Shown here piece after piece: positions 4,301 through 21,325 of a stretch of 64,000 nt of DNA (the first letter of the stretch is position 1; the number at the start of each line of letters is the position of its first letter). Source of the DNA: Acidimicrobiales bacterium (lineage in GTDB: Bacteria; Actinomycetota; Acidimicrobiia; Acidimicrobiales; Bog-793); assembly GCA_035294085.1 (NCBI GenBank), contig DATGLP010000023.1, positions 1-64,000 of the forward strand, in the 5' to 3' direction. Below the pieces are notes generated by a model. That model made no database searches. It saw only the letters and a list, made by a program, of their open reading frames with translations, and was not told the origin of the DNA. The position numbers were made by a program, and so were the translations under genes.

Positions 4301-4306
4301 GCCCGA

Positions 4307-4312
4307 ATGCTA
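4307..4312 (-). promoter_or_regulatory. -10 box (TAGCAT) of the glutamate dehydrogenase gene
   Basis: TAGCAT on the minus strand ends exactly six bases before the GTG start. This spacing places transcription initiation at or next to the start codon. Confidence 0.55.
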
Positions 4313-4329
4313 CTGCTCGCCTCGAGGGC

Positions 4330-5232
4330 TCAGGTGGGGCTGCTCGTGACCACGCGCTCGTAGGGCCGCTGCTCGGTGAGGCGCTCCTCGGCACCGGTCG
4401 CGACGAGCGGGGAGCCGGAGAGCACGAAGAGGGCCGTGAACATGACGAACAAGGCTGCCCCCTCGAGGCCCGCGCGCGCGCCGAACGCGTGCAGGTGGTC
4501 GCCGAAGAGCCAGACCCCGATCACGATGCTCGAGAGCGGGTTGACGATGAGCAGCGCCGACTGCGACGCCGCGACCGGCCCCGCCTCGAGCGCGTGCTGG
4601 CTCAGGACGAGACCCGCGAGGCCGCTCACCGCGACCCCGTAGGCCTCGAAGTGCACGAGGAGCGTGAGGGGCCCGTGCTGCCACTGGTCCGCCGCGCTCT
4701 TCACGAACGCTGCGGTGAGCGCGAAGCAGATCCCGGCAGCGACCCCGTAGGCGGCGGCACGCCACCAGCGGGGGCCGCGTCGCGCCGCACCGGCCGCGAG
4801 GGCCACCGCACCGCCGCAGGCGAGGAGCAGGAGCGCCCAGTCGAGGTGCGAGGGGCGACCGTGCCCGCCGCGCGCCGCCGACAGAGCCAGGAAGACGCCG
4901 AGGCCAGCGGCAGTCCCGGTCGCACCGACCAGCTCGCGCCACCCGAGCGTGCGCCGGAACCAGCTGCCGAGCACGAGGACGAGGAAGACGATCTCCGTGA
5001 CCATCACGGGCTGGACCGTCGAGAGGTCGCCGAGCGACAGCGCGATGGCCTGGAGGAAGAAGCTGGCGGTCGTGAGGCCGAGCCCCGCGAACCAGATCGG
5101 GCGGCGAAGCACGCTCGCCATGAGCGACCGAGTCGAGCCGGGGGCCGGCGACGCCTCCTCGACACCGATTCGTTGCAGAATCGTCGCAAGAGCATTGGCG
5201 GCCGCGGCGAGCAGCGCGAGCAGGATCGCCAT
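4330..5232 (-). CDS. DMT-family (EamA-like) membrane transporter
   Basis: A 300-residue, strongly hydrophobic protein with about ten predicted helices in two halves, as in the drug/metabolite transporter superfamily. Helix 1 is M-A-I-L-L-A-L-L-A-A-A-A-N-A-L-A-T, and the typical pairs G-D-L-S-T-V-Q-P-V and A-S-Q-S-A-L-L-I-V-N-P-L-S-S-I occur in the two halves. The substrate cannot be told from the sequence. The ATG start has TATAAC seven bases upstream, which overlaps the rnhB stop codon. It follows rnhB on the same strand but appears to have its own promoter. Confidence 0.8.
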   Translation of the reverse strand: MAILLALLAAAANALATILQRIGVEEASPAPGSTRSLMASVLRRPIWFAGLGLTTASFFLQAIALSLGDLSTVQPVMVTEIVFLVLVLGSWFRRTLGWRELVGATGTAAGLGVFLALSAARGGHGRPSHLDWALLLLACGGAVALAAGAARRGPRWWRAAAYGVAAGICFALTAAFVKSAADQWQHGPLTLLVHFEAYGVAVSGLAGLVLSQHALEAGPVAASQSALLIVNPLSSIVIGVWLFGDHLHAFGARAGLEGAALFVMFTALFVLSGSPLVATGAEERLTEQRPYERVVTSSPT

Positions 5233-5240
5233 CGATCCCG

Positions 5241-5948
5241 TTATACCGCGCCTGCCTCCGAGGCGATAGGTGCGGCCCGCCGATCCAACGGCCGCGCACC
5301 CCCGTCCTGGTCCGCTTCGAGCAGGCTGCGCCCGGTCACGCCGACCGACCACGTGCGCCGGTGCAGCGAGGTGAGCCCGAGGCGGGCCACCGCGCGCCGG
5401 TGCTCCGCCGACGGGTAGCCCTTGTTGCGCTCGAACCCGTACCCGGGGTGCCGCTCGGCTGCGGCTGCCATGAGCCGGTCGCGCGTCACCTTCGCGAGGA
5501 CCGAGGCCGCGGCGACGACGAGCGAGCGTCGGTCCGCGCCGACGAGCGGGAGCGCTCCGCGCCCCGTGTAGTCGTGACAGCCGTCCACGATCAGCGCCGC
5601 CGGAACCTGCCCGAGGGAGTCGAGCGCCCGGTCGGCCGCCAGCCGCTGGGCCGCGGTGAGCCCGAGAGCGTCGCACTCCTGCGCGCTCGCGTGACCGACG
5701 GCGTAGGCGGTCAGCGCCGCTGCGAGCGGGGCGAAGAGCGCCTCGCGTGCACGCTCGGTGAGCAGCTTCGAGTCGCGCACGCCCTCCGGCAGGCACGACA
5801 GGGTCTCGAGCGTGACGACCGCCACCCCGACGCTGACCGGCCCCGCCCAGGCGCCCCGGCCCACCTCGTCGATCCCCGCGACGGTCGCGCACCCTCCGGC
5901 GAGGAGCGCCCGCTCGGTACCCGTGCCGGGCAGGCACGCGCTCGTCAC
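5241..5948 (-). CDS. rnhB: Ribonuclease HII
   Basis: A protein of 235 residues. The catalytic motif G-I-D-E-V-G-R-G-A-W-A-G-P near residue 24 supplies the Asp-Glu pair; R-D-S-K-L-L-T and V-D-G are further conserved elements. The C-terminal half has H-P-G-Y-G-F-E-R-N-K-G-Y-P, diagnostic for RNase HII, which removes RNA from RNA-DNA hybrids and initiates ribonucleotide excision. The GTG start overlaps the rpiB stop by four bases (GTGA). It is the last gene of gpsA-rpiB-rnhB. Confidence 0.93.
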   Translation of the reverse strand: MTSACLPGTGTERALLAGGCATVAGIDEVGRGAWAGPVSVGVAVVTLETLSCLPEGVRDSKLLTERAREALFAPLAAALTAYAVGHASAQECDALGLTAAQRLAADRALDSLGQVPAALIVDGCHDYTGRGALPLVGADRRSLVVAAASVLAKVTRDRLMAAAAERHPGYGFERNKGYPSAEHRRAVARLGLTSLHRRTWSVGVTGRSLLEADQDGGARPLDRRAAPIASEAGAV

Positions 5949-6361
5949 TGCGCCGGCTCGACGCGGGCGATGGCCTCGGCCTCGGCCGGGTCTGGCTCGC
6001 CCTCGAGGAAGGCGTCGACGACCTCGCTGGCGAGCGCCTCGCTCGTCAGCCGGAGCGAGAGCGCGAGCACGTTGGCGTCGTTCCACCGGCGAGCGCCGAG
6101 CGCGGTCGCCGCGTCGCCGCAGAGCGCGGCACGCGCCCCGGGGACCTTGTTCGCCGCAATGGCGACGCCCGTCCCCGTGTAGCAGCACACGATGCCCCGG
6201 TCCGCGTCGCCGCGCACAACCGCCCGAGCGACGGTGCGCCCGACCTCGGGCCAGGCCGCGCCCGGGGCGAGCCGCTCGACGCTGTGGCCGGCAGCGCGGA
6301 GGTGCCGAGCGATGTGCTCGACGAGCGGGGTCTCCTCGTCGCTCCCGAGCGCGATGCGCAC
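5945..6361 (-). CDS. rpiB: RpiB/LacA/LacB-family sugar-phosphate isomerase
   Basis: A protein of 138 residues matching ribose-5-phosphate isomerase B in length. The catalytic segment C-Y-T-G-T-G-V-A-I-A-A-N-K-V-P-G keeps the nucleophile-position Cys and the Thr of the family, and W-N-D-A-N-V-L-A-L-S is the second conserved block. The usual N-terminal G-S-D-H-A-G is G-S-D-E-E-T, so the His normally next to the Asp is Glu, which makes the exact substrate less certain. The start is GTG at 6361; a nearby ATG is out of frame. It starts 13 bases after the gpsA stop. Confidence 0.8.
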   Translation of the reverse strand: MRIALGSDEETPLVEHIARHLRAAGHSVERLAPGAAWPEVGRTVARAVVRGDADRGIVCCYTGTGVAIAANKVPGARAALCGDAATALGARRWNDANVLALSLRLTSEALASEVVDAFLEGEPDPAEAEAIARVEPAQ

Positions 6362-6374
6362 CGGCGCATGGTAC

Positions 6375-7388
6375 CTAGCGCGAGAGCACGCCCTCGAACT
6401 CGGACTTGGCCGCCCGGTGCATGAGGAGGGGGAGGGAGTCCCTCGGCGAGCGGCCGCCGTGGCACACGGCGACGACCTGCTCCGCGACGGGGACCTCGAC
6501 GCCGTGGCGCCGAGCGAGCTCGACGAGGGGGCGGCAGGTGCGCACCCCCTCCGCCACGGTGCGCGCGCCGGCGAGGACCTCGGCGAGGCGACGACCTTCG
6601 CCGAGTGCCACCCCGACGGCGAAGTTGCGGCTCCTCCTGCTCGTGCAGGTGGCGACGAGGTCGCCGAGCCCGGCAAGGCCGGAGAAGGTGAGCGGCTCGC
6701 CGCCCAGCGCCACGCCGAGGCGCGCCATCTCGGCGAGGGCACGGGTCACGAGCGCGCCACGGGTATTGTCCCCGAGTCCGAGGCCGACCGCCATGCCGCA
6801 GGCGATCGCCATGACGTTCTTCGCGGCGCCGGCGACCTCGCAGCCGACGACGTCGTGGTTCGTGTAGACGCGCAGGGATCTCGAGCCGAACAGTCGCTGG
6901 AGCTCGCGCGCCAGCGCTGCGTCGACCGAGGCGACGACCGACGCGGCCGGCTGGCCGGCCAGGATCTCGCCCGCGAGGTTCGGGCCGGTGAGGACCCCCA
7001 CGGACCTGCCAGGCCAGCACTCGGCGACGATCTCCGTCATCCGAGCGAGCGTCGTCTCCTCGAGGCCCTTGGTAAGGCTGACGACGACGGCGCCTTCGCC
7101 GACAGCCACGGCGCCCGCCTTCAGCACCTCGCGCAGACCGTGGCTCGGGACGGCGAGCACGACGAGCGAGCGCCCCTCGAGCGCCTCCTCGAGCGAGGCC
7201 GTCGCCTCGAGCGAGCGCGAGAGCCGGTGGTCGCCGAGGTAGGCGCGATTGGTGCGCGAACGCCGCACCTCGTCGGCAACCTCCTCCGAGCGTGCCCACA
7301 GCACCGTCGGCAGACGGCGCGCGAGCAGGTCCGCGACCGTGGTTCCCCACGACCCGGCGCCGAGCACGGCGGCATTCCTCAGCTGCAC
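6375..7388 (-). CDS. gpsA: Glycerol-3-phosphate dehydrogenase [NAD(P)+]
   Basis: A protein of 337 residues, typical length. It starts with the nucleotide-binding motif V-L-G-A-G-S-W-G-T-T and carries V-V-S-L-T-K-G-L-E, the catalytic lysine region C-E-V-A-G-A-A-K-N-V-M-A-I-A and G-L-A-G-L-G-D-L-V-A-T-C-T-S-R-R-S-R-N. The enzyme makes sn-glycerol 3-phosphate from dihydroxyacetone phosphate for phospholipids. GTG at 7388 is chosen because the Rossmann motif begins a few residues later; longer GTG starts exist upstream. It is divergent from cofC. Confidence 0.93.
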   Translation of the reverse strand: MQLRNAAVLGAGSWGTTVADLLARRLPTVLWARSEEVADEVRRSRTNRAYLGDHRLSRSLEATASLEEALEGRSLVVLAVPSHGLREVLKAGAVAVGEGAVVVSLTKGLEETTLARMTEIVAECWPGRSVGVLTGPNLAGEILAGQPAASVVASVDAALARELQRLFGSRSLRVYTNHDVVGCEVAGAAKNVMAIACGMAVGLGLGDNTRGALVTRALAEMARLGVALGGEPLTFSGLAGLGDLVATCTSRRSRNFAVGVALGEGRRLAEVLAGARTVAEGVRTCRPLVELARRHGVEVPVAEQVVAVCHGGRSPRDSLPLLMHRAAKSEFEGVLSR

Positions 7389-7482
7389 CTGCGCCGACCA
7401 CACGCCCGAGGGGCCGACCAGCTCGACACCGTGCCCCACGGTAGTGGGCCTGACGCCGGGACGCTCGATGCGCGGCCGCCCG

Positions 7483-7488
7483 TAGACT
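7483..7488 (+). promoter_or_regulatory. -10 box (TAGACT) of cofC
   Basis: TAGACT ends six bases before the GTG start of cofC and no Shine-Dalgarno sequence is present. The pattern indicates a leaderless transcript. Confidence 0.55.
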
Positions 7489-7494
7489 CCGGCC

Positions 7495-8124
7495 GTGCGT
7501 GCGCTCCTCGTGCCGGTCAAGGCCTTCTCGAGGGCCAAGGAGCGGCTCGCGGGCGTCCTCGACGACGCCGAGCGTGCGTCGCTCGCGCGCCGCCTCGCGG
7601 CTGGCGTCCTCGCGGCCAGCGGCTCGATGCCGCGCTTCGTCGTCTGCGACGACGACGACGTCGCGAGCTGGGCAACCTCGTCGGGGGCAACGGTGATCTG
7701 GACGCCCGGACTCGGCCTCTCCGGCGCGGTGCGCCACGGCGTCGAGCGACTCGCGGCGCGCGGCTTCCGCCTCGTCGTCGTGGCGCACGCCGACCTCCCC
7801 TTCGCCGCGGCGCTCGACGCCTTCGGCGAACCGGGCCTGGTGACGCTCGCGCCCGATCGCCGGCTCGACGGAACGAACGTCGCCGCCGTTCCCGCCGGCT
7901 CCGGCTTCGCCTTCGCGTACGGCCCGGGCTCGTTCCGGCGCCACCGCGCCGCGGCGCGCCGCGCCGGCCTGCCCTGCCGCCTCGTCTACGACTGGAACCT
8001 CGCGTGCGACGTCGACGTCGCCGAGGACCTCGGCCTGCTCTCGCAGGATCCACTCGTCGACGGCCCGCCCGGAGTGCCCGGACGAGGGCGCGCGGACACC
8101 GCCACGGTGAGGCGGTCGCCGTGA
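7495..8124 (+). CDS. cofC: 2-phospho-L-lactate guanylyltransferase (F420 biosynthesis)
   Basis: A protein of 209 residues with the CofC pattern. The N-terminus is P-V-K-A-F-S-R-A-K-E-R-L-A (nucleotide-binding lysines), the central G-L-S-G-A-V-R-H-G-V-E is characteristic, and V-V-V-A-H-A-D-L-P-F provides the metal-binding Asp. The enzyme activates phospholactate or phosphoenolpyruvate with GTP for coenzyme F420 assembly. The other F420 genes are not in this window. Its stop overlaps the start of the deacetylase gene by GTGA, so the two are coupled, although no pathway link is known to me. Confidence 0.9.
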   Translation: MRALLVPVKAFSRAKERLAGVLDDAERASLARRLAAGVLAASGSMPRFVVCDDDDVASWATSSGATVIWTPGLGLSGAVRHGVERLAARGFRLVVVAHADLPFAAALDAFGEPGLVTLAPDRRLDGTNVAAVPAGSGFAFAYGPGSFRRHRAAARRAGLPCRLVYDWNLACDVDVAEDLGLLSQDPLVDGPPGVPGRGRADTATVRRSP

Positions 8125-8861
8125 CGACCACTGACCTCGACACGCCGGCGCGCGCCCTCGCGATCGGAGCCCATCCCGACGACATCGAGTTCGGCTGCGG
8201 CGGCACCCTCGCCAAGTGGGCCCTCCAGGGCTGCGAGATCTTCCACCTCGTCCTCACCGACGGCTCGAAGGGCAGCTGGGACGCGGCCAGCGACGCGGCC
8301 GCCCTCGTCCAGTGCCGCCACGAGGAGCAGCGCGCGGCCCAGCGCGCCCTCGGCGGGCACGGCGGCGTCACCTTCCTCGACTGGCCTGATGGCGAGCTCG
8401 AGGCGGGGCTCTACCAACGGCTCCAGGTCGCTGCCTGCATCCGACGGTGCGCACCCGACGTGGTGCTCGGGCACGACCCCTGGAAGCGCTACCGGATCCA
8501 TCCGGACCACCGCAACGCGGGCTGGCTCACGACCGACGGCGTCGTCGCGGCGCGCGACCCGCTCTTCTTCCCCGAACTCGGCCTGCCGCCGCACCGACCG
8601 CGCACGATCCTGCTCTTCGAGGCGGACGACGCCGACCACCTCGAGGACATCTCCGCCACCTTCGACACCAAGCTCGCCGCGCTCTTGTGCCACCGCAGCC
8701 AGCTCCGCTCGACGATGGGCATCGACGCAGCGACGGGTTCGCCTCGCTACGAGGAACAGCTCGGCGCCTTCGAGGCGCGCCTGCGACAGGAGGCCGTCGA
8801 TGCTGCCGGCACGAGCGGCATCCTGCTCGCCGAGTCCTTCAAGCGGATCGACGACCGCTGA
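8121..8861 (+). CDS. PIG-L/LmbE-family deacetylase
   Basis: A protein of 246 residues. A-H-P-D-D-I-E-F-G-C-G-G-T near residue 17 is the zinc-binding signature of N-acetylglucosaminyl deacetylases of the PIG-L/MshB type; I-H-P-D-H further on gives the third zinc ligand. D-G-S-K-G-S-W and H-D-P-W-K-R-Y-R are also family features. Substrates in this family include GlcNAc-Ins (mycothiol) and bacillithiol precursors, but this member cannot be placed in a subgroup with confidence. The GTG start overlaps the cofC stop. Confidence 0.85.
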   Translation: MTTTDLDTPARALAIGAHPDDIEFGCGGTLAKWALQGCEIFHLVLTDGSKGSWDAASDAAALVQCRHEEQRAAQRALGGHGGVTFLDWPDGELEAGLYQRLQVAACIRRCAPDVVLGHDPWKRYRIHPDHRNAGWLTTDGVVAARDPLFFPELGLPPHRPRTILLFEADDADHLEDISATFDTKLAALLCHRSQLRSTMGIDAATGSPRYEEQLGAFEARLRQEAVDAAGTSGILLAESFKRIDDR

Positions 8862-8872
8862 CCGTTCGCGCC

Positions 8873-8919
8873 GCGAGCGGCCCCGCCGCGCAGTACCACG
8901 GCACGGCGGGACCGCTCGC
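8873..8919. terminator. Bidirectional stem-loop terminator
   Basis: GCGAGCGG pairs with CCGCTCGC, followed after one mismatch by CCCGCCG pairing with CGGCGGG, giving a stem of 15 pairs and a 15-base loop. It lies exactly between the convergent deacetylase and HU genes. There is no U tract, as is common in high-GC actinobacteria. Confidence 0.75.
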
Positions 8920-8926
8920 AGCTCGC

Positions 8927-9442
8927 TCAGGCGCGCCGAGCGCCGCGCTTTGCCGGTGCCTTATTCGCAGCCTGCTTGGCCGGCGTGCGCCTCGTGCCAG
9001 CGTTCCTCGCCGGGACACGCGCGGCCACGGCCTTCGGGGCCGTCCTGCGCGCGGTTGGCTTGCTCGCAGCGGTCTTGCTCCCGGCGGCCTTCGCACCCGC
9101 CTTGCGCGCCGTCGCCGACGCCTTGGTCGCAGGAGCAGCGAGCGGCTTCGGCTTGGCGAGCGTGCCTCGCGAGTTGAGGTCGGCCTTCAGCTGGACCCCA
9201 GGGGTGAACCCGATGCCCTTCGATGCCTTGATCCGCACGGGGGCGCCCGTCTGCGGGTTCCGGCCACGGCGGGCCTGGCGCTCGCGCAGCTTGAACGTCC
9301 CGAATCCGGTGATGCGCACCGGCGTGCCTGCACGTACTCCGTTGGTGATCTCGTAGACGAGGGCGTCGAGTGCCGCTGCTGCCTGCACACGGGTCAGACC
9401 CGTATCGCCGCTGATCGCCTCGACCAATTCGGTTCTGTTCAC
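8927..9442 (-). CDS. hup: HU-family DNA-binding protein with basic C-terminal tail
   Basis: A protein of 171 residues. Residues 1-90 are a complete HU domain, with N-R-T-E-L-V-E-A-I at the start, the beta-arm core V-R-I-T-G-F-G-T-F, and R-x-G-R-N-P-Q-T-G, which binds the DNA minor groove. Residues 91-171 form a low-complexity Ala/Lys/Pro/Arg tail like eukaryotic H1, as in mycobacterial HupB. The nucleoid protein compacts and protects DNA. The GTG start has a very strong AAGGAGG five bases upstream, in contrast with the leaderless neighbours. Confidence 0.93.
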   Translation of the reverse strand: MNRTELVEAISGDTGLTRVQAAAALDALVYEITNGVRAGTPVRITGFGTFKLRERQARRGRNPQTGAPVRIKASKGIGFTPGVQLKADLNSRGTLAKPKPLAAPATKASATARKAGAKAAGSKTAASKPTARRTAPKAVAARVPARNAGTRRTPAKQAANKAPAKRGARRA

Positions 9443-9730
9443 TCCTACCTCCTTGAAGATGCTGCGAAGTCCACGCAATACAAGAGGATCTACGGCGCAA
9501 ATGCAAGCAATGTCGCTTCCGAGGTCTCGAGCACGCCGTGTCAGCGGGTTCGAGCGCACGCTTGCCGCAACGGAACGCGAGGAGTTCTTCCAAGGTTTTC
9601 CTCCCTCTTCACCGTCCAGCAGCTGTCGGGCGGCGGTAGGCCGAGCGGTACGGCAACGCGCGACGACAGCGGTACGGACCCGCCCGGCAGGCACCCAGAT
9701 CGCAGCGCGAACGACGCCCTCGCGCTCGTC
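9443..9730. other. Divergent intergenic region between HU and the coupling-protein gene
   Basis: This stretch holds the HU Shine-Dalgarno sequence and presumably its promoter. A candidate -35 TTGCAT and -10 TTGTAT are seen on the minus strand around 9480-9515, but they are weak. The coupling-protein frame stays open leftward without a usual start codon, so part of the stretch could encode an N-terminus. Confidence 0.35.
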
Positions 9731-11092
9731 GTGGCTGCCTCGCGCGCCCATCGCGACGGCCTGTATCTCGGCGAGGGAGCGGGCGGCCCCGTCTTCGCCC
9801 CGCCCGAGCACGGCCTCCTCGTCCTCGGTCCGCCGCGCTCGGGGAAGACCGCGGCGGTCGTCGTCCCGAACGTCCTCAAGGCCGCGGGGAGCGTCCTCGC
9901 GGTCTCGACCAAGCGCGACGTCCTCGACACGACGGCGAGCGCCCGGGCGCGCCTCGGCCCCGTCCTCTGCTTCGACCCGAGCGGGACCCTCGACCCGCCG
10001 CCGCCGGTACGGCGGATCGGCTGGTCTCCGGTCGCAGCGGCCCGGCGGTGGGACCACGCGGTCCTCCTCGCGGAGTCGATGGTCGGCGCGAGCCGCCCCA
10101 GTGATCATGCAGATGCCGTGCACTGGAACGAACGGGCGGGGGCCCTGCTCGCCACGCTGCTCCACGCCGCCGCCCTCGCCGGGACGTCGATGTACGACGT
10201 CGTCGCCGCCGTGAACCGACGCCGGCCCGAGCGGTTCCTCGACGTGCTGGCGCGCCACGGCGCCGCGCTGGCGCTCGACCTGCTCACCGGGATCGTCGAG
10301 ACGGACGAGCGGGAGCAGAGCGGGATCTGGTCCACGGCGTCCGGCATCCTCGCCGCCTACCGGACGCACGAGGCACTCGACGCGACGCGCCTCGAGCCCT
10401 TCGATGCGCGCCGCTTCGTCGCAGAACGGGCGACCCTCTACGTCGCCGTGTCCGGAGAGCACCAGCGGCACCTCGCTCCGCTCGTCGCGGGCATCGTCCG
10501 TGACGTCAGGAGCGCCGCCTACGCGGCGCGCGCTCGAGACGAGACGGCCCCGGTGCCACGACCGCCCGTGCTGCTCGTGCTCGACGAGCTCGCCAACATC
10601 GCGCCGCTCCACGATCTCCCGGCGCTCGTCGCGGAAGGCGCCAGCCAGGGCCTGGTCACGCTCGCCTGCCTGCAGGATCTCTCCCAGGCCCGGGGCCGCT
10701 TCGGCGCGCTCGCTGACGGCTTCCTCTCCCTGTTCGGCGCCAAGCTCGTCCTCGGTGGCATCGGCGACGTCCGGACGCTCGACACGCTCGCACGGCTCGC
10801 CGGAGAGCTCGACGTCCCGAGCGCCTCGGTCACCTTCGGCGCCGGCGGGACGTTCCTTCGCCGCCGCTCGACGACCGTCGCGCCTCGCCGAGTGCCGCGG
10901 CTGCCCGCGGACCGCATCGCGCGACCCCCTGGTCGCCACGCGACCGCGGTGCTCGGCGCGCGCCCGGCGCGCGTCGCGCTCACGCCCTGGTACGCGTCGT
11001 CCCCCTGGCGAGAGGCAGCCGGCCTGGACGGCCCGAGGCACGCGCCAGGTCGCGACGCGGGACGCGAGGGCCCCGCGACACTCCGGCGCTGA
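9731..11092 (+). CDS. VirD4/TraG-like type IV coupling ATPase without membrane anchor
   Basis: A protein of about 453 residues. Walker A is G-P-P-R-S-G-K-T (33-40), followed by A-A-V-V-V-P-N as in TraG/VirD4; Walker B is L-L-V-L-D-E-L-A-N-I-A-P (about 280). The segments L-V-T-L-A-C-L-Q-D-L-S-Q and F-G-A-K-L-V-L-G-G-I-G-D fit the conserved motor core of conjugative coupling proteins. Members normally have two N-terminal membrane helices; none is present here. The first in-frame usual start codon is the GTG at 9731, without a Shine-Dalgarno sequence, so the 5' end is uncertain. It faces a MobF relaxase gene six bases away; no secretion-channel gene is in the window. Confidence 0.78.
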   Translation: MAASRAHRDGLYLGEGAGGPVFAPPEHGLLVLGPPRSGKTAAVVVPNVLKAAGSVLAVSTKRDVLDTTASARARLGPVLCFDPSGTLDPPPPVRRIGWSPVAAARRWDHAVLLAESMVGASRPSDHADAVHWNERAGALLATLLHAAALAGTSMYDVVAAVNRRRPERFLDVLARHGAALALDLLTGIVETDEREQSGIWSTASGILAAYRTHEALDATRLEPFDARRFVAERATLYVAVSGEHQRHLAPLVAGIVRDVRSAAYAARARDETAPVPRPPVLLVLDELANIAPLHDLPALVAEGASQGLVTLACLQDLSQARGRFGALADGFLSLFGAKLVLGGIGDVRTLDTLARLAGELDVPSASVTFGAGGTFLRRRSTTVAPRRVPRLPADRIARPPGRHATAVLGARPARVALTPWYASSPWREAAGLDGPRHAPGRDAGREGPATLRR

Positions 11093-11098
11093 GCCCGG

Positions 11099-13120
11099 TC
11101 ATCGCGCCAGCTGGGCCGGCACCCCGAGCTCGAGCCCGGCGTCGCGCCGGCGCGTGCGGCCGGCCGACGGCCAGGCGCGCACGTCGCGGGCGAGCACGGC
11201 CGACGCGGGGCGCGCGAGGGCGCGGGCCCGCCGCTCGGCGCCGACTCGCCGCAGCGGCGCGACCGCGAGGTGGACGCGGCGCACGCTGGGATCTTCGAGG
11301 AGCGCTCGCGGCAGCGACGTGGCACCTCCGAGCACGACGAGCTCGGTCGGCGGCCGACCGCCGAGGCGTGCAGCGTCACCGCTCACGCGCCCCGCCGCGA
11401 GGACCAGGCGGGCGTCACGGCCGTCTCGGCGCGCTGCGGCGAGGAGCTCCTGCGCCCGGGCCATGAGCCCGGCGGGTCGCTCGACGAGCTCCACCCGGTG
11501 GCATCCTTCCTCGAGCACCCCGAGCGGACCCCTCGCCCCCGCGGGCGCGCCGGTGAGGTCGAGCCGCTCGACGCGCGGCACGAGCACGACCGTCCCCGCC
11601 AGCTCTCGGGCGCGCCCGACGAGACGGTCCAGCGTCGCCGCGCCGAGCGCACCGTCCTCCACGAGCACCATCCCGCCGGCGGCGAGAGCGTCGGCGCGCG
11701 CCGGGGGCTGCGCCGCCACCCCGACGACCGCCTCGAGGTAGGCCGCTCGGGCGCCGTCTGCGGCGATCGCCGCCGCCGGTCTGCCCGCGAGCGTCGCGGC
11801 TCTCGCGAGGTCGAAGAGCACCTCGGCCGCGACGCGCTGGCCGGGGTGGTGCTCGCAGACGAGGAGCGGCTCGCTCGGTGCACCGGGCGACCGCGTCACC
11901 CCCGGAGCGGCCGCACGCGCAACGGCCACGCGGCGCTCGGCCGCGGCGAGCGCCGCAGGGACGAAGAGCGGCTCGCGTCCGCCGGCCGGCAGGCGACGGC
12001 CACGGCCGAGGCGACGGGCCACGGTGCGCGCCGCCACCAGGCGGCCCGAGGCGAGCGCCGCGTCGACGGCGGCCTCCACGACGCGCACCGGCGCGCCGCC
12101 GGGCAGCACGCCGGCGACGTGGCGGACGAGCTCGTCGCGCCGGCAAGCTCGTTCCAGCCCTTCGAGCAGGCGCAGCGCCTCGACCACCTCCCCGGGCTCG
12201 GGCGGCGTCCGCTCGCCCGGCCGACGCGCCGGGGCCAGCTCGGCGAGGCGCGTCTGCGAGAGCCCGAGGGCGCGCGCACGCCCCCACCACGCCTCGACGA
12301 GCGCCTCGTAGGGCGTCTCGAGGTCCTTCGCCGGGCGCGTCCGCAGCGCGGCGGCGCGCGCCGCGCCGACGCCGTGCCGGCCGGAGGCCGCCAGCTCCTC
12401 GAGGATGGCCTCCTGACGGCGCGAGAAGGCGAGGAGCACCGATCGCGGCACGTCGACGAGGTCCGCGAACCCTCCCCGTCGCAGCTCCCAGCGGACGTCG
12501 AGGCGGGCGGCCACCTCGAAGCGCAGCTGGGCGCGATAGAGCGCGCCGGCGGTCCGCAGCTGCGCGTACAGCGCGCGCGCGTCGAGGGCTGACGCTCGCC
12601 CCGCCGCGTCGCAGGCCACGTTCGCCACGAGGACGTGGGTGTGCAGGTGCGGGTCCGGCGCCCGGCTCGTCCGGTGGACGAAGGCGGCCGCGGCGAAGCC
12701 GTCAGCCGGCACGGCGACTCGCTCGCCGCCGACCTCCCGCCGCACGCGCGCCGCGCGCCGCTCGAGGTAGGCGAGGGTCGCGGCGACGCTCGCGTCGTGG
12801 GCCTCGCGCAGGGCGGCCGCCGTCTCGGGGGCGCCGAGGGCGAAGAGGACGCTTGCGGACTTCGGCGCGGAGAAGGTGCAGTCGAAGGCGACGATGCGGC
12901 GCCGATGGAGCGCCGTGCCACGCACCTCCCCCGTCACGGCGTCGACGCCCTCGAGGAGCGCGCCGAGCGTCGACCGGTCGACCGCGGCAGGGCCAAGGTC
13001 GCGCGCCCGCGTCCCGAGCCAGTAGCCCGCGGGCTCGAGCAGGGGGCCGGCTCCCTGCGGCGGCGCCGTCGCGAGGTAGTAGGCCTCGCCGCCGCGGGCG
13101 ACCTTCGCCACGGTGAGCAC
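11099..13120 (-). CDS. MobF (TrwC/TraI-like) relaxase with degenerate helicase domain
   Basis: A protein of 673 residues. The relaxase domain (about 1-250) has Tyr14-Tyr15, A-F-D-C-T-F-S-A-P-K-S-A-S (79-90) and the metal-binding D-P-H-L-H-T-H-V-L-V-A-N with His158, His160 and His162, as in TrwC enzymes that nick plasmid DNA. The C-terminal part aligns in outline with the RecD-like helicase half: M-V-L-V-E-D-G-A-L-G (about 484-493) sits where V-D-E-A-G-x-x is expected. However, there is no G-K-[ST] anywhere in the protein, so Walker A is gone. It is shorter than usual (TrwC about 970). Nicking may persist without unwinding; that is inference. Confidence 0.8.
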   Translation of the reverse strand: MLTVAKVARGGEAYYLATAPPQGAGPLLEPAGYWLGTRARDLGPAAVDRSTLGALLEGVDAVTGEVRGTALHRRRIVAFDCTFSAPKSASVLFALGAPETAAALREAHDASVAATLAYLERRAARVRREVGGERVAVPADGFAAAAFVHRTSRAPDPHLHTHVLVANVACDAAGRASALDARALYAQLRTAGALYRAQLRFEVAARLDVRWELRRGGFADLVDVPRSVLLAFSRRQEAILEELAASGRHGVGAARAAALRTRPAKDLETPYEALVEAWWGRARALGLSQTRLAELAPARRPGERTPPEPGEVVEALRLLEGLERACRRDELVRHVAGVLPGGAPVRVVEAAVDAALASGRLVAARTVARRLGRGRRLPAGGREPLFVPAALAAAERRVAVARAAAPGVTRSPGAPSEPLLVCEHHPGQRVAAEVLFDLARAATLAGRPAAAIAADGARAAYLEAVVGVAAQPPARADALAAGGMVLVEDGALGAATLDRLVGRARELAGTVVLVPRVERLDLTGAPAGARGPLGVLEEGCHRVELVERPAGLMARAQELLAAARRDGRDARLVLAAGRVSGDAARLGGRPPTELVVLGGATSLPRALLEDPSVRRVHLAVAPLRRVGAERRARALARPASAVLARDVRAWPSAGRTRRRDAGLELGVPAQLAR

Positions 13121-13154
13121 CGGGCGAAGCTCGCGTCTCGATGTATCTCGTTAC

Positions 13155-13170
13155 CTACCGTTCACGGTAG
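13155..13170. promoter_or_regulatory. Inverted repeat at the pafC stop / upstream of the relaxase gene
   Basis: CTACCG-TTCA-CGGTAG is a perfect 6-bp inverted repeat. On the minus strand it covers the last codons and stop of pafC and lies 35 bases before the relaxase start. It could be a short transcript hairpin or an operator. The sequence does not distinguish these. Confidence 0.3.
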
Positions 13171-14102
13171 CGGGCCAGGGCGAGACGAGCGACCTCGGCC
13201 GCCGCTCCGGCGAGATCGGCGGGCTCCACGACGGCTGCCTCCGGTCCGAGCATCAGGAGGAGCCGCCCGAGGAAGTGCGCATCGCCGACGGCGACGGGCA
13301 CGACGGCGCGCCCGTCCGGCGACTCGCTGACCGGTCCGGCCGCGAGCCGGTCGAGGAGGACCCGGCGCGCGCTCGGCAGGGAGATCTTCACGAGCCGGGT
13401 CGTGGCACCGCCGGCGAAGGCCCGCGCGCCCGTGAACTCCGCAGGCGGCGTCCGCGCCGGCACACGGTCGGGCACCGGCCGCACCGCCGCCACCCGCGAG
13501 ACCCGGAACCGCCGCCAGTCGCCGGCCAGGCGGCAGAAGGCGTCCAGGTAGAAGTGGCCCTCTCGTGCCACGACGGCGTACGGCTCGACGACGCGCGTCG
13601 TCTCGTCGCCGCGCCTCGCACCGAGGTAGTCGATCTCGACGCAACGCCCCGCGACCGCTGCCTGCCGCAGCTCCTCGAGGTGCTCGGGGACCTCGAGCTC
13701 GACATCGAGGCGGTCCGCACCCAGGGCGGCCTCGAGCTTCGCCAGCGCGCTCGCGAGCGGTCCGTCCTGCTCCGCGCCGTGCACGGCGAGCAGCGCGCGG
13801 GCGGCCGCGGCCACGGCGAAGCCCTCGTCGGGCGTGAGCCGAGGGGGGCGGCGCAGCGCCTCGAGGCCGCGGGCCACCACCCGCGAGCCGTCGACGATGA
13901 GCTCGAGCAGCTGGTCGGGGGTGTAGGGCGGCAGGCCGCAGCACGCCGCGAGCTCGAGCTCCGCCACGAGGGTCGCCTCGTCCATGGCGAAGCGGCGGGC
14001 GAGCTGCGCGATCGACGCCTCGCCGACGCGCGCCAGGTAGGCGAGCACGGCGAGCAGCCGCCGCAGCCGCTCGCCCGCGTCCTTCGTGCCGGCGTCGCTC
14101 AG
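13155..14102 (-). CDS. pafC: WYL-domain transcriptional regulator, PafC-like
   Basis: A protein of about 315 residues. A winged-helix N-terminal part (E-R-L-R-R-L-L-A-V-L-A-Y-L, then I-A-Q-L-A-R-R-F-A-M) precedes a WYL domain with V-E-I-D-Y-L-G-A-R-R-G-D-E-T and H-F-Y-L-D-A-F-C-R-L-A-G-D-W-R-R-F-R-V-S-R. With PafB it is known in mycobacteria to activate a LexA-independent DNA-damage response. The start is unclear: the end of pafB reads CCC-TGA and a CTG overlaps it (CTGA), giving the family's usual N-terminus; the next standard start lies at 14171, inside pafB. Confidence 0.8.
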   Translation of the reverse strand: MSDAGTKDAGERLRRLLAVLAYLARVGEASIAQLARRFAMDEATLVAELELAACCGLPPYTPDQLLELIVDGSRVVARGLEALRRPPRLTPDEGFAVAAAARALLAVHGAEQDGPLASALAKLEAALGADRLDVELEVPEHLEELRQAAVAGRCVEIDYLGARRGDETTRVVEPYAVVAREGHFYLDAFCRLAGDWRRFRVSRVAAVRPVPDRVPARTPPAEFTGARAFAGGATTRLVKISLPSARRVLLDRLAAGPVSESPDGRAVVPVAVGDAHFLGRLLLMLGPEAAVVEPADLAGAAAEVARLALARYRER

Positions 14103-15037
14103 GGCGGGCCCCCTGACGCGGCCGACTCGAGGCGCTCGACGACCCGGGCCCGGAGCGCCTCGGGAGCGCACACCTCGACGGAGTCGCCCAGCCCGAGGAC
14201 CCAGGCGACGAAGGCCTCCTCGTCGCCGACACGAAAGGCGAGGCGCACCGAGCCGTCGGGGTGGCGGGCCACGACGGCGTCCTCGCCGACGAGCGCCACG
14301 ACGTCGCGCGCCTCGCGCACGTCGACCTCGACGACGACCTGCGACGCCCCCTCGCCATCGGAGAGCCGGAAGGGCGACAGCCGGAGCTCGGCCTCGAGGT
14401 CGAAGCCGTCCGGGCGCTCGAAGGCACCGGGCTCGCCGAGCGTCGGCTCGTCCTCGATCCGGTCCACGCGGAAGGTGCGCAGCCCCCGGCCCTCGGCCGA
14501 GGCGTCCCGGCCGATCAGGTACCAGCTGCCGGACCGGAAGGCGAGCCCGTAGCCGGCGACGGTCCGTCGCCGGCCGCGGTAGGAGAAGGAGGCGTACGCC
14601 CGCGTGCGCAGGGCCTCCTGGAGGGGACCGAGCGCCGGGAGGGACGGCAGGACGGCGATCGGAGCGAGGTCGGGCAACGGCGAGCCGAGCTTCGCCTGCA
14701 CCCCGCGTCCGACACCGCCCTCGAGGCGCACGGCGGCGAGCGCGAAGGCGAGCGCCTCCTCCTCCGCCGCGTCGAGCCCGAGCTCGGGGAGGTAGTACTG
14801 CTCGGGCGGGATCCGGTAGCCGACCTGGTCGTCGGCGTCGATCCGCTCGACGACCACGGGGATGCCGTTATCCCGAAGCGTCCGCTTGTCGCGCTCGAAG
14901 GCCTGGCGCAGCGCTCCGGGCTGCGCCGGGTAGCCGGCGACCTGGTCGCCGATCTCGCGCAGCGACAGCGGACGAGGCGTCTCGAGCAGCACGAGCACGA
15001 GGTTCGTGATGCGTTCCAGCCTGCTGAGGCGCGCCAC
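14099..15037 (-). CDS. pafB: WYL-domain transcriptional regulator, PafB-like
   Basis: A protein of 312 residues with an N-terminal winged helix (R-L-S-R-L-E-R-I-T-N-L-V, then S-L-R-E-I-G-D-Q-V) and a WYL core that includes A-S-F-S-Y-R-G-R-R-R-T-V and S-G-S-W-Y-L-I-G-R-D, followed by R-T-F-R-V-D-R-I. The WYL domain is a ligand or nucleic-acid sensor. It overlaps pafC by four bases, matching the conserved pafBC pair. The GTG start has TAGCAT eight bases before it, so it is probably leaderless. The proteasome ligase gene pafA, often nearby in relatives, is not here. Confidence 0.88.
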   Translation of the reverse strand: MARLSRLERITNLVLVLLETPRPLSLREIGDQVAGYPAQPGALRQAFERDKRTLRDNGIPVVVERIDADDQVGYRIPPEQYYLPELGLDAAEEEALAFALAAVRLEGGVGRGVQAKLGSPLPDLAPIAVLPSLPALGPLQEALRTRAYASFSYRGRRRTVAGYGLAFRSGSWYLIGRDASAEGRGLRTFRVDRIEDEPTLGEPGAFERPDGFDLEAELRLSPFRLSDGEGASQVVVEVDVREARDVVALVGEDAVVARHPDGSVRLAFRVGDEEAFVAWVLGLGDSVEVCAPEALRARVVERLESAASGGPP

Positions 15038-15132
15038 GGCAGGCCATGCTACGGGCGCGACGGCGTCGCCCGGAAGGAACGCCGGCGCGAAGGTGGCCGC
15101 CGCCGGCTGCGCGCCGCGGCTCGCGCGGACCG

Positions 15133-20981: not shown

Positions 20982-21325
20982 CGGTCGCGGCGCGACCGCC
21001 ACCGCGCGATCCGTGCGGCGGCTCCTTCGACGCGTGCCAGCCCAGCGCGCAGGACGGGGCGGGCCGGTGCCGGCACGAGCAGCCGTGCGACGCGGCGGAG
21101 CGCGCGGGACCGCTCGGCGAGACGCGGGACTCGAAGCGCTGCGGCGGCGGCGAGCTCGAAGCGCTCGGCGAGGTCGGCGTCGCGCGACGCGTCCCAGTGC
21201 CCCTCGGCGGCGAGGCGAGCCACCTCTGCCTCGATCTCCGCCGCCAGCGTGCCGAGGTCGCACGCGGCGCGCCCGACCTCCTCGGTGGCAGGCGGCCGCG
21301 CCCGGCTCTCGCCGGCCGAGCTCAC
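20978..21325 (-). CDS. Small helical protein (115 aa) in the polysaccharide operon
   Basis: A protein with no recognised family. The first 65 residues are acidic and helical (L-A-A-E-I-E-A-E-V-A-R-L-A-A-E-G-H-W-D, then R-D-A-D-L-A-E-R-F-E-L-A); the last 50 are strongly basic (R-S-R-A-L-R-R-V-A-R-L-L, ending R-W-R-S-R-R-D-R). It has no signal or membrane helix. Four-base overlaps on both sides lock it between wzt and the glycosyltransferase, so it should be made at the same time as them. It may be a scaffold for the enzyme complex at the membrane; this is inference. Confidence 0.65.
   Translation of the reverse strand: MSSAGESRARPPATEEVGRAACDLGTLAAEIEAEVARLAAEGHWDASRDADLAERFELAAAAALRVPRLAERSRALRRVARLLVPAPARPVLRAGLARVEGAAARIARWRSRRDR

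Follow-up and report, generated by a model that had tools for sequence, protein, structure and literature searches.

Here we report that a relaxase gene and a coupling ATPase gene, arranged tail-to-tail between the genes of HU and PafC in a 64,000-nucleotide stretch of an Acidimicrobiales genome (assembly GCA_035294085.1, contig DATGLP010000023.1, positions 1 to 64,000; hereafter the window), are well supported by sequence comparison as a retained, domesticated and vertically inherited chromosomal pair under selection. Together with a type IV secretion system (T4SS) encoded elsewhere on the chromosome, the pair would form, on evidence that leans modestly in this direction, a domesticated, vertically inherited conjugation-type machine that is split over two loci and has its relaxase joined to the PafBC damage-response operon. 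Bacterial conjugation is normally a property of mobile elements; the Acidimicrobiales that carry both the pair and the T4SS, a whole branch of soil-dwelling and acid-loving actinobacteria, may run it for their own use.

The gene at 9731–11092 (+ strand, GTG start) encodes a 453-residue protein, the paf-type TraG, predicted to be a soluble VirD4/TrwB-like coupling ATPase. It possesses the T4SS-DNA_transf ATPase domain typical of VirD4/TrwB coupling proteins, with both Walker motifs intact (A, GPPRSGKT; B, LLVLDELANIAP, LVLDELANIAP), and matches PF02534 (9e-25, 87.9 bits), TraG-D_C PF12696 (8e-16) and TrwB_AAD_bind PF10412 (5e-11). Aligned relatives share 39%–63% identity with it, and the Walker A lysine and the GPPR-x-GK pattern are invariant in the alignments. 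No N-terminal transmembrane anchor was found: only 32 residues precede Walker A, with a maximal 19-residue hydropathy of 0.48, and the open frame farther upstream of the start likewise encodes no membrane anchor by hydropathy. Before Walker A this maximum does not exceed 1.12 in the window ATPase and 16 relatives, compared with 2.1–3.1 in a second VirD4 described below. The AlphaFold2 model (predicted local distance difference test score, pLDDT, of 90) matched TrwB-deltaN70, that is, TrwB minus its membrane part, in Foldseek with a TMt of about 0.7; the fold also resembles that of HerA-type DNA translocases. Pfam, hydropathy and the structural match bear out an initial annotation of this locus, which had described a coupling protein with Walker A and B and without an anchor.

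The convergent gene at 11099–13120 (– strand) encodes a 673-residue MOBF (TrwC-type) relaxase, comprising a trans-esterase domain (residues 1–290), a degenerate RecD-like half and a C-terminal tail of conserved type. The trans-esterase domain of the MOBF family is clearly recognizable (PF08751, 1e-63; NCBIfam MobF NF041492, 197 bits; cut-off, 100), and the AlphaFold2 model (pLDDT 85 overall) reached a TMt of up to 0.88 to TrwC in Foldseek. The N-terminal nucleophile tyrosines Tyr14/Tyr15 and the HxxxSRxxDPHLHxH metal site of the family are in place, with Asp80, His149 and the three histidines His158-x-His160-x-His162 present; the Tyr pair and the three histidines had been noted in the initial annotation. 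Among 51 sequences, Tyr14 occurs in 50 (the exception resulting from start choice), His160 and His162 in all 51, and His158 in 50 (the exception being a non-paf copy); in the 50 aligned paf-linked relaxases, His149, Arg153, His158, His160 and His162 are invariant and Tyr14 differs in one mis-started sequence. The RecD-like helicase half, which in the MOBF family carries Walker A and B, lacks G-x4-GK[ST] anywhere in the window protein and has VEDGA at the Walker B position. Its model is confidently folded, with a weak match to RecD2. Since the longest paf-linked relaxases are still recognized as AAA_30, and alignment with intact mobile relaxases shows no Walker A loop in the window protein and a replaced one in its longer relatives, this half is truly degenerate rather than misread. 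None of the 50 aligned paf-linked relaxases (386–1063 residues) retains Walker A, and many relatives have the helicase half trimmed to about 150 residues. The ATPase-dead helicase noted initially is a fixed trait of this relaxase lineage. A 12-nucleotide inverted repeat (92% complementary, 13-nucleotide loop) lies across the relaxase start codon at 13098–13134 of the window, and could be an mRNA hairpin or a chance product of GC-rich sequence.

The arrangement itself, convergent genes between HU and pafBC, was given correctly in the initial annotation, which advised looking for the same pair at the same place in relatives. Every one of the 23 other family genomes has the relaxase. In each case where the contig is long enough, pafC-pafB lie on one side of the relaxase and the convergent ATPase gene on the other, with HU usually beyond. 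In the window, the relaxase gene follows that of PafC (HTH_PafC + WYL + WCX; 13155–14171, – strand; PF19187, 4e-26) on the same strand after a 34-bp gap, and PafB (WYL + WCX; 14099–15043, – strand; PF13280/PF25583) starts an apparent pafB-pafC-rlx operon. The loci that we fetched from named genomes, mostly metagenome-assembled genomes (MAGs) labelled 'Acidimicrobiaceae bacterium' or 'Acidimicrobiales bacterium', repeat the gene order GpsA, CofC, HU, ATPase, relaxase, PafC, PafB, and the arrangement extends to dozens of genera, far beyond chance. The ATPase and relaxase stop codons are no more than about 100 bp apart, or overlap, in 46 of 52 loci; in 43 of 48, at most 290 bp separate the pafC stop from the start of the relaxase. 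In ten distant families (f9, f23, f28, f31, f32, f37, f41, f43, f47 and f59) the relaxase is on the same strand as PafB/PafC, beside them or a few genes away. One locus (L049 of genome G005, 4301–9282) has about 5 kb of extra sequence separating the ATPase and relaxase genes, which widens the tail-to-tail arrangement. In several families (L191, L194, L197, L198, L199, L202 and L204), PafB and PafC are predicted as a single fused protein of about 650–700 residues.

Selection on the pair resembles that on its housekeeping flanks. In close pairs of genomes, the ratio of nonsynonymous to synonymous substitution rates (dN/dS) of the relaxase domain is 0.12–0.30 in most comparisons and 0.35–0.38 in two, that of the ATPase 0.15–0.26, and that of PafB/PafC mostly 0.11–0.21; the helicase half of the relaxase is looser at 0.27–0.50. 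The dS values of the pair are broadly like those of the flanks. Furthermore, pairwise distances of the relaxase, the ATPase and two T4SS proteins, VirB4 and SCO6880, correlate with those of PafB/PafC (r = 0.65–0.84, permutation p of 0.028 or less). In the relaxase tree, the paf-linked copies, with one exception, form a single group, and the mobile relaxases, which mostly retain Walker A, fall outside it, although deep support is low (0.33). The characters of a mobile element, namely a variable site, integrase or replication genes and sporadic distribution, are lacking; the site and flanks are fixed across genera. Because synteny is fixed, frames are intact, dN/dS is low and distances follow those of pafBC, the pair appears to be domesticated and under selection, in agreement with the initial annotation's proposal of a retained pair that nicks and pumps DNA. 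The base composition is as unremarkable as stated there (GC 0.777, within the 0.68–0.79 of the window).

That annotation had also described the pair as being without a secretion system. At the locus this is correct, as no channel or replication genes were found around 9731–13120; at the level of the genome it is not. Searching the order with an ATPase profile revealed a second VirD4-like gene in most ATPase-positive genomes. As nearly every positive genome has it, we dropped the reading of an orphan pair without any channel and traced the T4SS locus, which is conserved elsewhere on the chromosome. In the genome of the window (G000) it lies outside the window on contig C21 (L142:1-5561), as an operon encoding a pilin-like DUF6112 protein (100 residues), a TrbL/SCO6881-like (TrbL/VirB6-like) protein (367 residues), a SCO6880-family protein (473 residues; 276 bits against a cut-off of 60), a VirB4-like ATPase (422 residues; GQIGRGKS and DEAW motifs) and a VirD4 anchored by membrane segments. 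Chromosomal, conserved VirB4, VirB6-like and VirB2-like genes, as in archaeal Ced/Ted systems, stand in one operon. A histidine kinase and an OmpR-type regulator are encoded divergently from the operon, which is followed by a pair of ABC transporter genes (assigned by eye), CtaA and a 115-residue gene taken by eye as ClpS. Among 13 fetched second loci, from genomes of 0.41–0.76 GC, most have the complete operon, and 21 of the 23 family relatives possess the VirB4-like gene.

To place this in the order, 148 genomes were sampled and the paf-type ATPase was called at E<1e-90. It is present in 50 genomes of 19 families; two of these genomes have partial or weaker matches within the same families and were counted by family context. 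A VirB4-like gene accompanies it in 49 of the 50, compared with 18 of the 98 others (Fisher 9e-23, uncorrected for phylogeny), and a MOBF relaxase likewise in 49 of the 50. Among the genomes considered by family, none of the families is mixed; 64 negative genomes lie outside this set. Outside the order, the best ATPase match in the phylum has an E-value of 3e-94, none reaching 1e-100. The genome of the window encodes a single MOBF relaxase and none of the PF03432 type. A closed, single-replicon genome (G053; 2,158,157 bp) possesses the ATPase, the relaxase and a T4SS operon that is complete and accompanied by the two-component system; an apparent absence of its relaxase was a sensitivity effect, as the diverged protein was recovered with a broader profile. 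In both G000 and G053, relaxase, type IV coupling protein (T4CP) and VirB4 co-occur in one genome, spread over two to three loci.

Two observations bear on a tie between the pair and the channel. In family f16, the T4SS operon has as its divergent neighbour a relaxase of the paf-linked group (L184:277-9619 and L208:2-8515), which is a direct physical link of relaxase and channel. These f16 T4SS loci have an extra gene of about 697 residues between SCO6880 and VirB4. Moreover, a C-terminal tail ending in ...[GS][LI][GS]R occurs in 21 of 58 relaxases and 13 of 82 ATPases compared with 1 of 249 neighbouring proteins, a pattern chosen after viewing the tails, so that its significance is inflated. 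The motif persists, unlike the remainder of the C-terminal half of the relaxase. Being common to the relaxase and the soluble ATPase, it may act as a signal for docking or translocation.

Several results weigh against a machine composed of pair and channel. Their co-occurrence is confounded by shared ancestry, and one genome (G083, 85% complete) has the ATPase and T4SS with no relaxase match. In some distant families the relaxase stays linked to pafBC though the ATPase has moved away, so that adjacency is lost. The f16 relaxase beside the T4SS keeps the HLHTH motif and has no recognizable N-terminal Tyr in the frame read. No VirB8-like protein or peptidoglycan hydrolase was recognized in the T4SS operon. 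Consistent with the initial annotation, no convincing origin of transfer (oriT) was found around the pair: the search for inverted repeats that it had suggested, made here in very GC-rich sequence, yielded few between the genes or near the start of the relaxase gene, none convincing. The mycobacterial PafBC promoter motif, searched for by its consensus, gave two 2-mismatch matches in the window, no more than chance would give and neither of them at these genes, and two one-mismatch matches in the whole genome, both away from them.

Taken together, we propose a putative model in which a conjugation-type machine, with the pair as its DNA-processing half, would have turned chromosomal in a large part of the Acidimicrobiales. 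The relaxase would nick chromosomal DNA and remain attached to the 5' end. The soluble ATPase, presumably hexameric and replacing the dead relaxase helicase, would move or pass on the strand, and the anchored VirD4 and VirB4 would drive it through the envelope into a neighbouring cell. The cell's own chromosome would supply the substrate, single-stranded DNA (ssDNA). Joint expression of the relaxase and PafBC would link the system to DNA damage; because matches to the PafBC promoter motif were not above chance, a putative damage induction is read here from the operon linkage, which is suggestive. In mycobacteria, ssDNA activates PafBC (PMC11804915), which would fit a system making or receiving ssDNA. 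It is a tentative extension of the model, plausible at best, that this is DNA-damage-linked chromosomal conjugation, in which the PafBC-associated relaxase nicks its own chromosome, the soluble TrwB-like motor takes over from the helicase and the SCO6880-type T4SS delivers ssDNA to related cells for use in recombinational repair.

The alternative that survives best, improbable as it seems, is an intracellular role in DNA repair or replication: the relaxase would nick or re-join DNA at stalled forks or gaps, the TrwB-like motor would translocate strands, and the T4SS would be conserved for a separate reason. The linkage to the damage-response genes pafBC, which is the most conserved context, agrees with this role, as do the anchor-free ATPase with its partly HerA-like fold and the separation of the pair from the T4SS in families such as f31, f41 and f43. 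However, it leaves the T4SS co-retained in nearly all ATPase-positive genomes, the adjoining relaxase of f16 and the common tail, of a type readable by a secretion or docking system, to be explained otherwise.

Distinctly unlikely is a host-encoded mobilization helper, in which relaxase, ATPase and T4SS would mobilize plasmids or integrated elements lacking their own machinery, or control incoming elements. Relatives in the order do have separate mobile relaxases with intact helicases, yet the system is also present in genomes without any other MOBF relaxase and in a single-replicon, plasmid-free genome, and its pattern is vertical. More doubtful still is a T4SS that exports proteins (the relaxase, the soluble ATPase or other effectors) and has lost DNA transfer, as suggested for Patescibacteria. 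The Arg-rich tails enriched in both proteins would suit such export, and the chromosomal Streptomyces cmdABCDEF cluster, with VirB4/SCO6880/SCO6881-like genes, affects development (PMC2782261); the relaxase active site, however, is essentially invariant, more than protein export alone would demand. Finally, a decaying remnant of an old integrated plasmid, which the initial annotation had raised, is hardly credible: the helicase half is indeed degenerate and faster-evolving, but with the same locus in dozens of genera, intact frames and flank-like purifying selection, we rejected a plasmid or integrative and conjugative element (ICE) remnant on the synteny and selection data.

On the far side of the pair, the HU nucleoid protein gene (8927–9442, – strand; PF00216, 1.5e-27) is divergent from the coupling ATPase gene and holds the same position in many relatives. 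The intergenic region between HU and TraG (9443–9730) contains, at window positions 9443–9550, a promoter-like element upstream of HU that is strongly conserved across genera (GCAATACAAGRGGAT...TGCAAGCA, GCAATACAAGRGGATTT ... TGCAAGCAT); lying on the HU side, this element looks like the HU promoter, and no oriT-like conserved repeat was recognized in the region. Elsewhere in the window, ARAGORN predicted a tRNA-Ala (anticodon AGC) at 21004–21106 (+ strand) overlapping a predicted – strand gene, which is probably a false positive.

Comparison with known systems delineates what is particular to the Acidimicrobiales. The window relaxase shares the trans-esterase fold, the nucleophile Tyr and the three-His metal site with TrwC/TraI of R388 and F, but its RecD-like half lacks Walker A and its gene is chromosomal and pafBC-linked. 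The window ATPase has the domain and fold of TrwB-deltaN70, but is anchor-free, with a second, anchored VirD4 encoded together with the T4SS. The nearest analogues, the archaeal Ced/Ted machines, which lack a recognizable relaxase, likewise have chromosomally encoded VirB4, VirB6 and VirB2 homologues off mobile elements, with a DNA damage link in Sulfolobales; according to the authors, no domestication of this kind for DNA transfer had been reported from elsewhere (PMC9905601). In contrast, the system described here is in a bacterium and keeps a MOBF relaxase joined to pafBC as well as two VirD4-type ATPases; DNA transfer is demonstrated for Ced, whereas here we infer it from genes. Among SCO6880-type T4SSs (SLP2 transfer genes; S. 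coelicolor cmdABCDEF, SCO6871–6884), which share the VirB4-like, SCO6880-family and SCO6881-like membrane proteins, cmd is also chromosomal, is related to the SLP2 transfer genes and has sporulation effects (PMC2782261). No relaxase or coupling protein is described for cmd, whereas Acidimicrobiales co-retain relaxase, coupling ATPases and two-component system across the order. Patescibacteria also have a widely distributed chromosomal monoderm-type T4SS with VirB2-like pilins, mostly without a relaxase (PMC12102498), whereas in the Acidimicrobiales the relaxase is nearly always present with a conserved active site. A survey of T4SS-type ICEs in Actinobacteria required an integrase gene alongside relaxase, T4CP and VirB4 (PMC3218068), and therefore would not be expected to report this system. 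Our literature search found no paper linking a relaxase to PafC or describing such a system in Acidimicrobiales.

In summary, this study provides insights into a relaxase and a soluble coupling ATPase that co-occur with a chromosomal T4SS across the Acidimicrobiales. A relaxase and a coupling protein on one contig do not prove a plasmid or an ICE, a caution for anyone typing mobility in metagenomes. If the proposed model is true, a complete, vertically inherited toolkit of nickase, two coupling motors, channel and regulator, found across an order and tied to the damage response, would be a bacterial parallel to the archaeal Ced/Ted systems, and a bacterial counterpart of Ced that retained its relaxase. 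Host-owned chromosomal conjugation would then become testable in the cultured Acidimicrobium ferrooxidans, whose closed genome appears to hold the full set.

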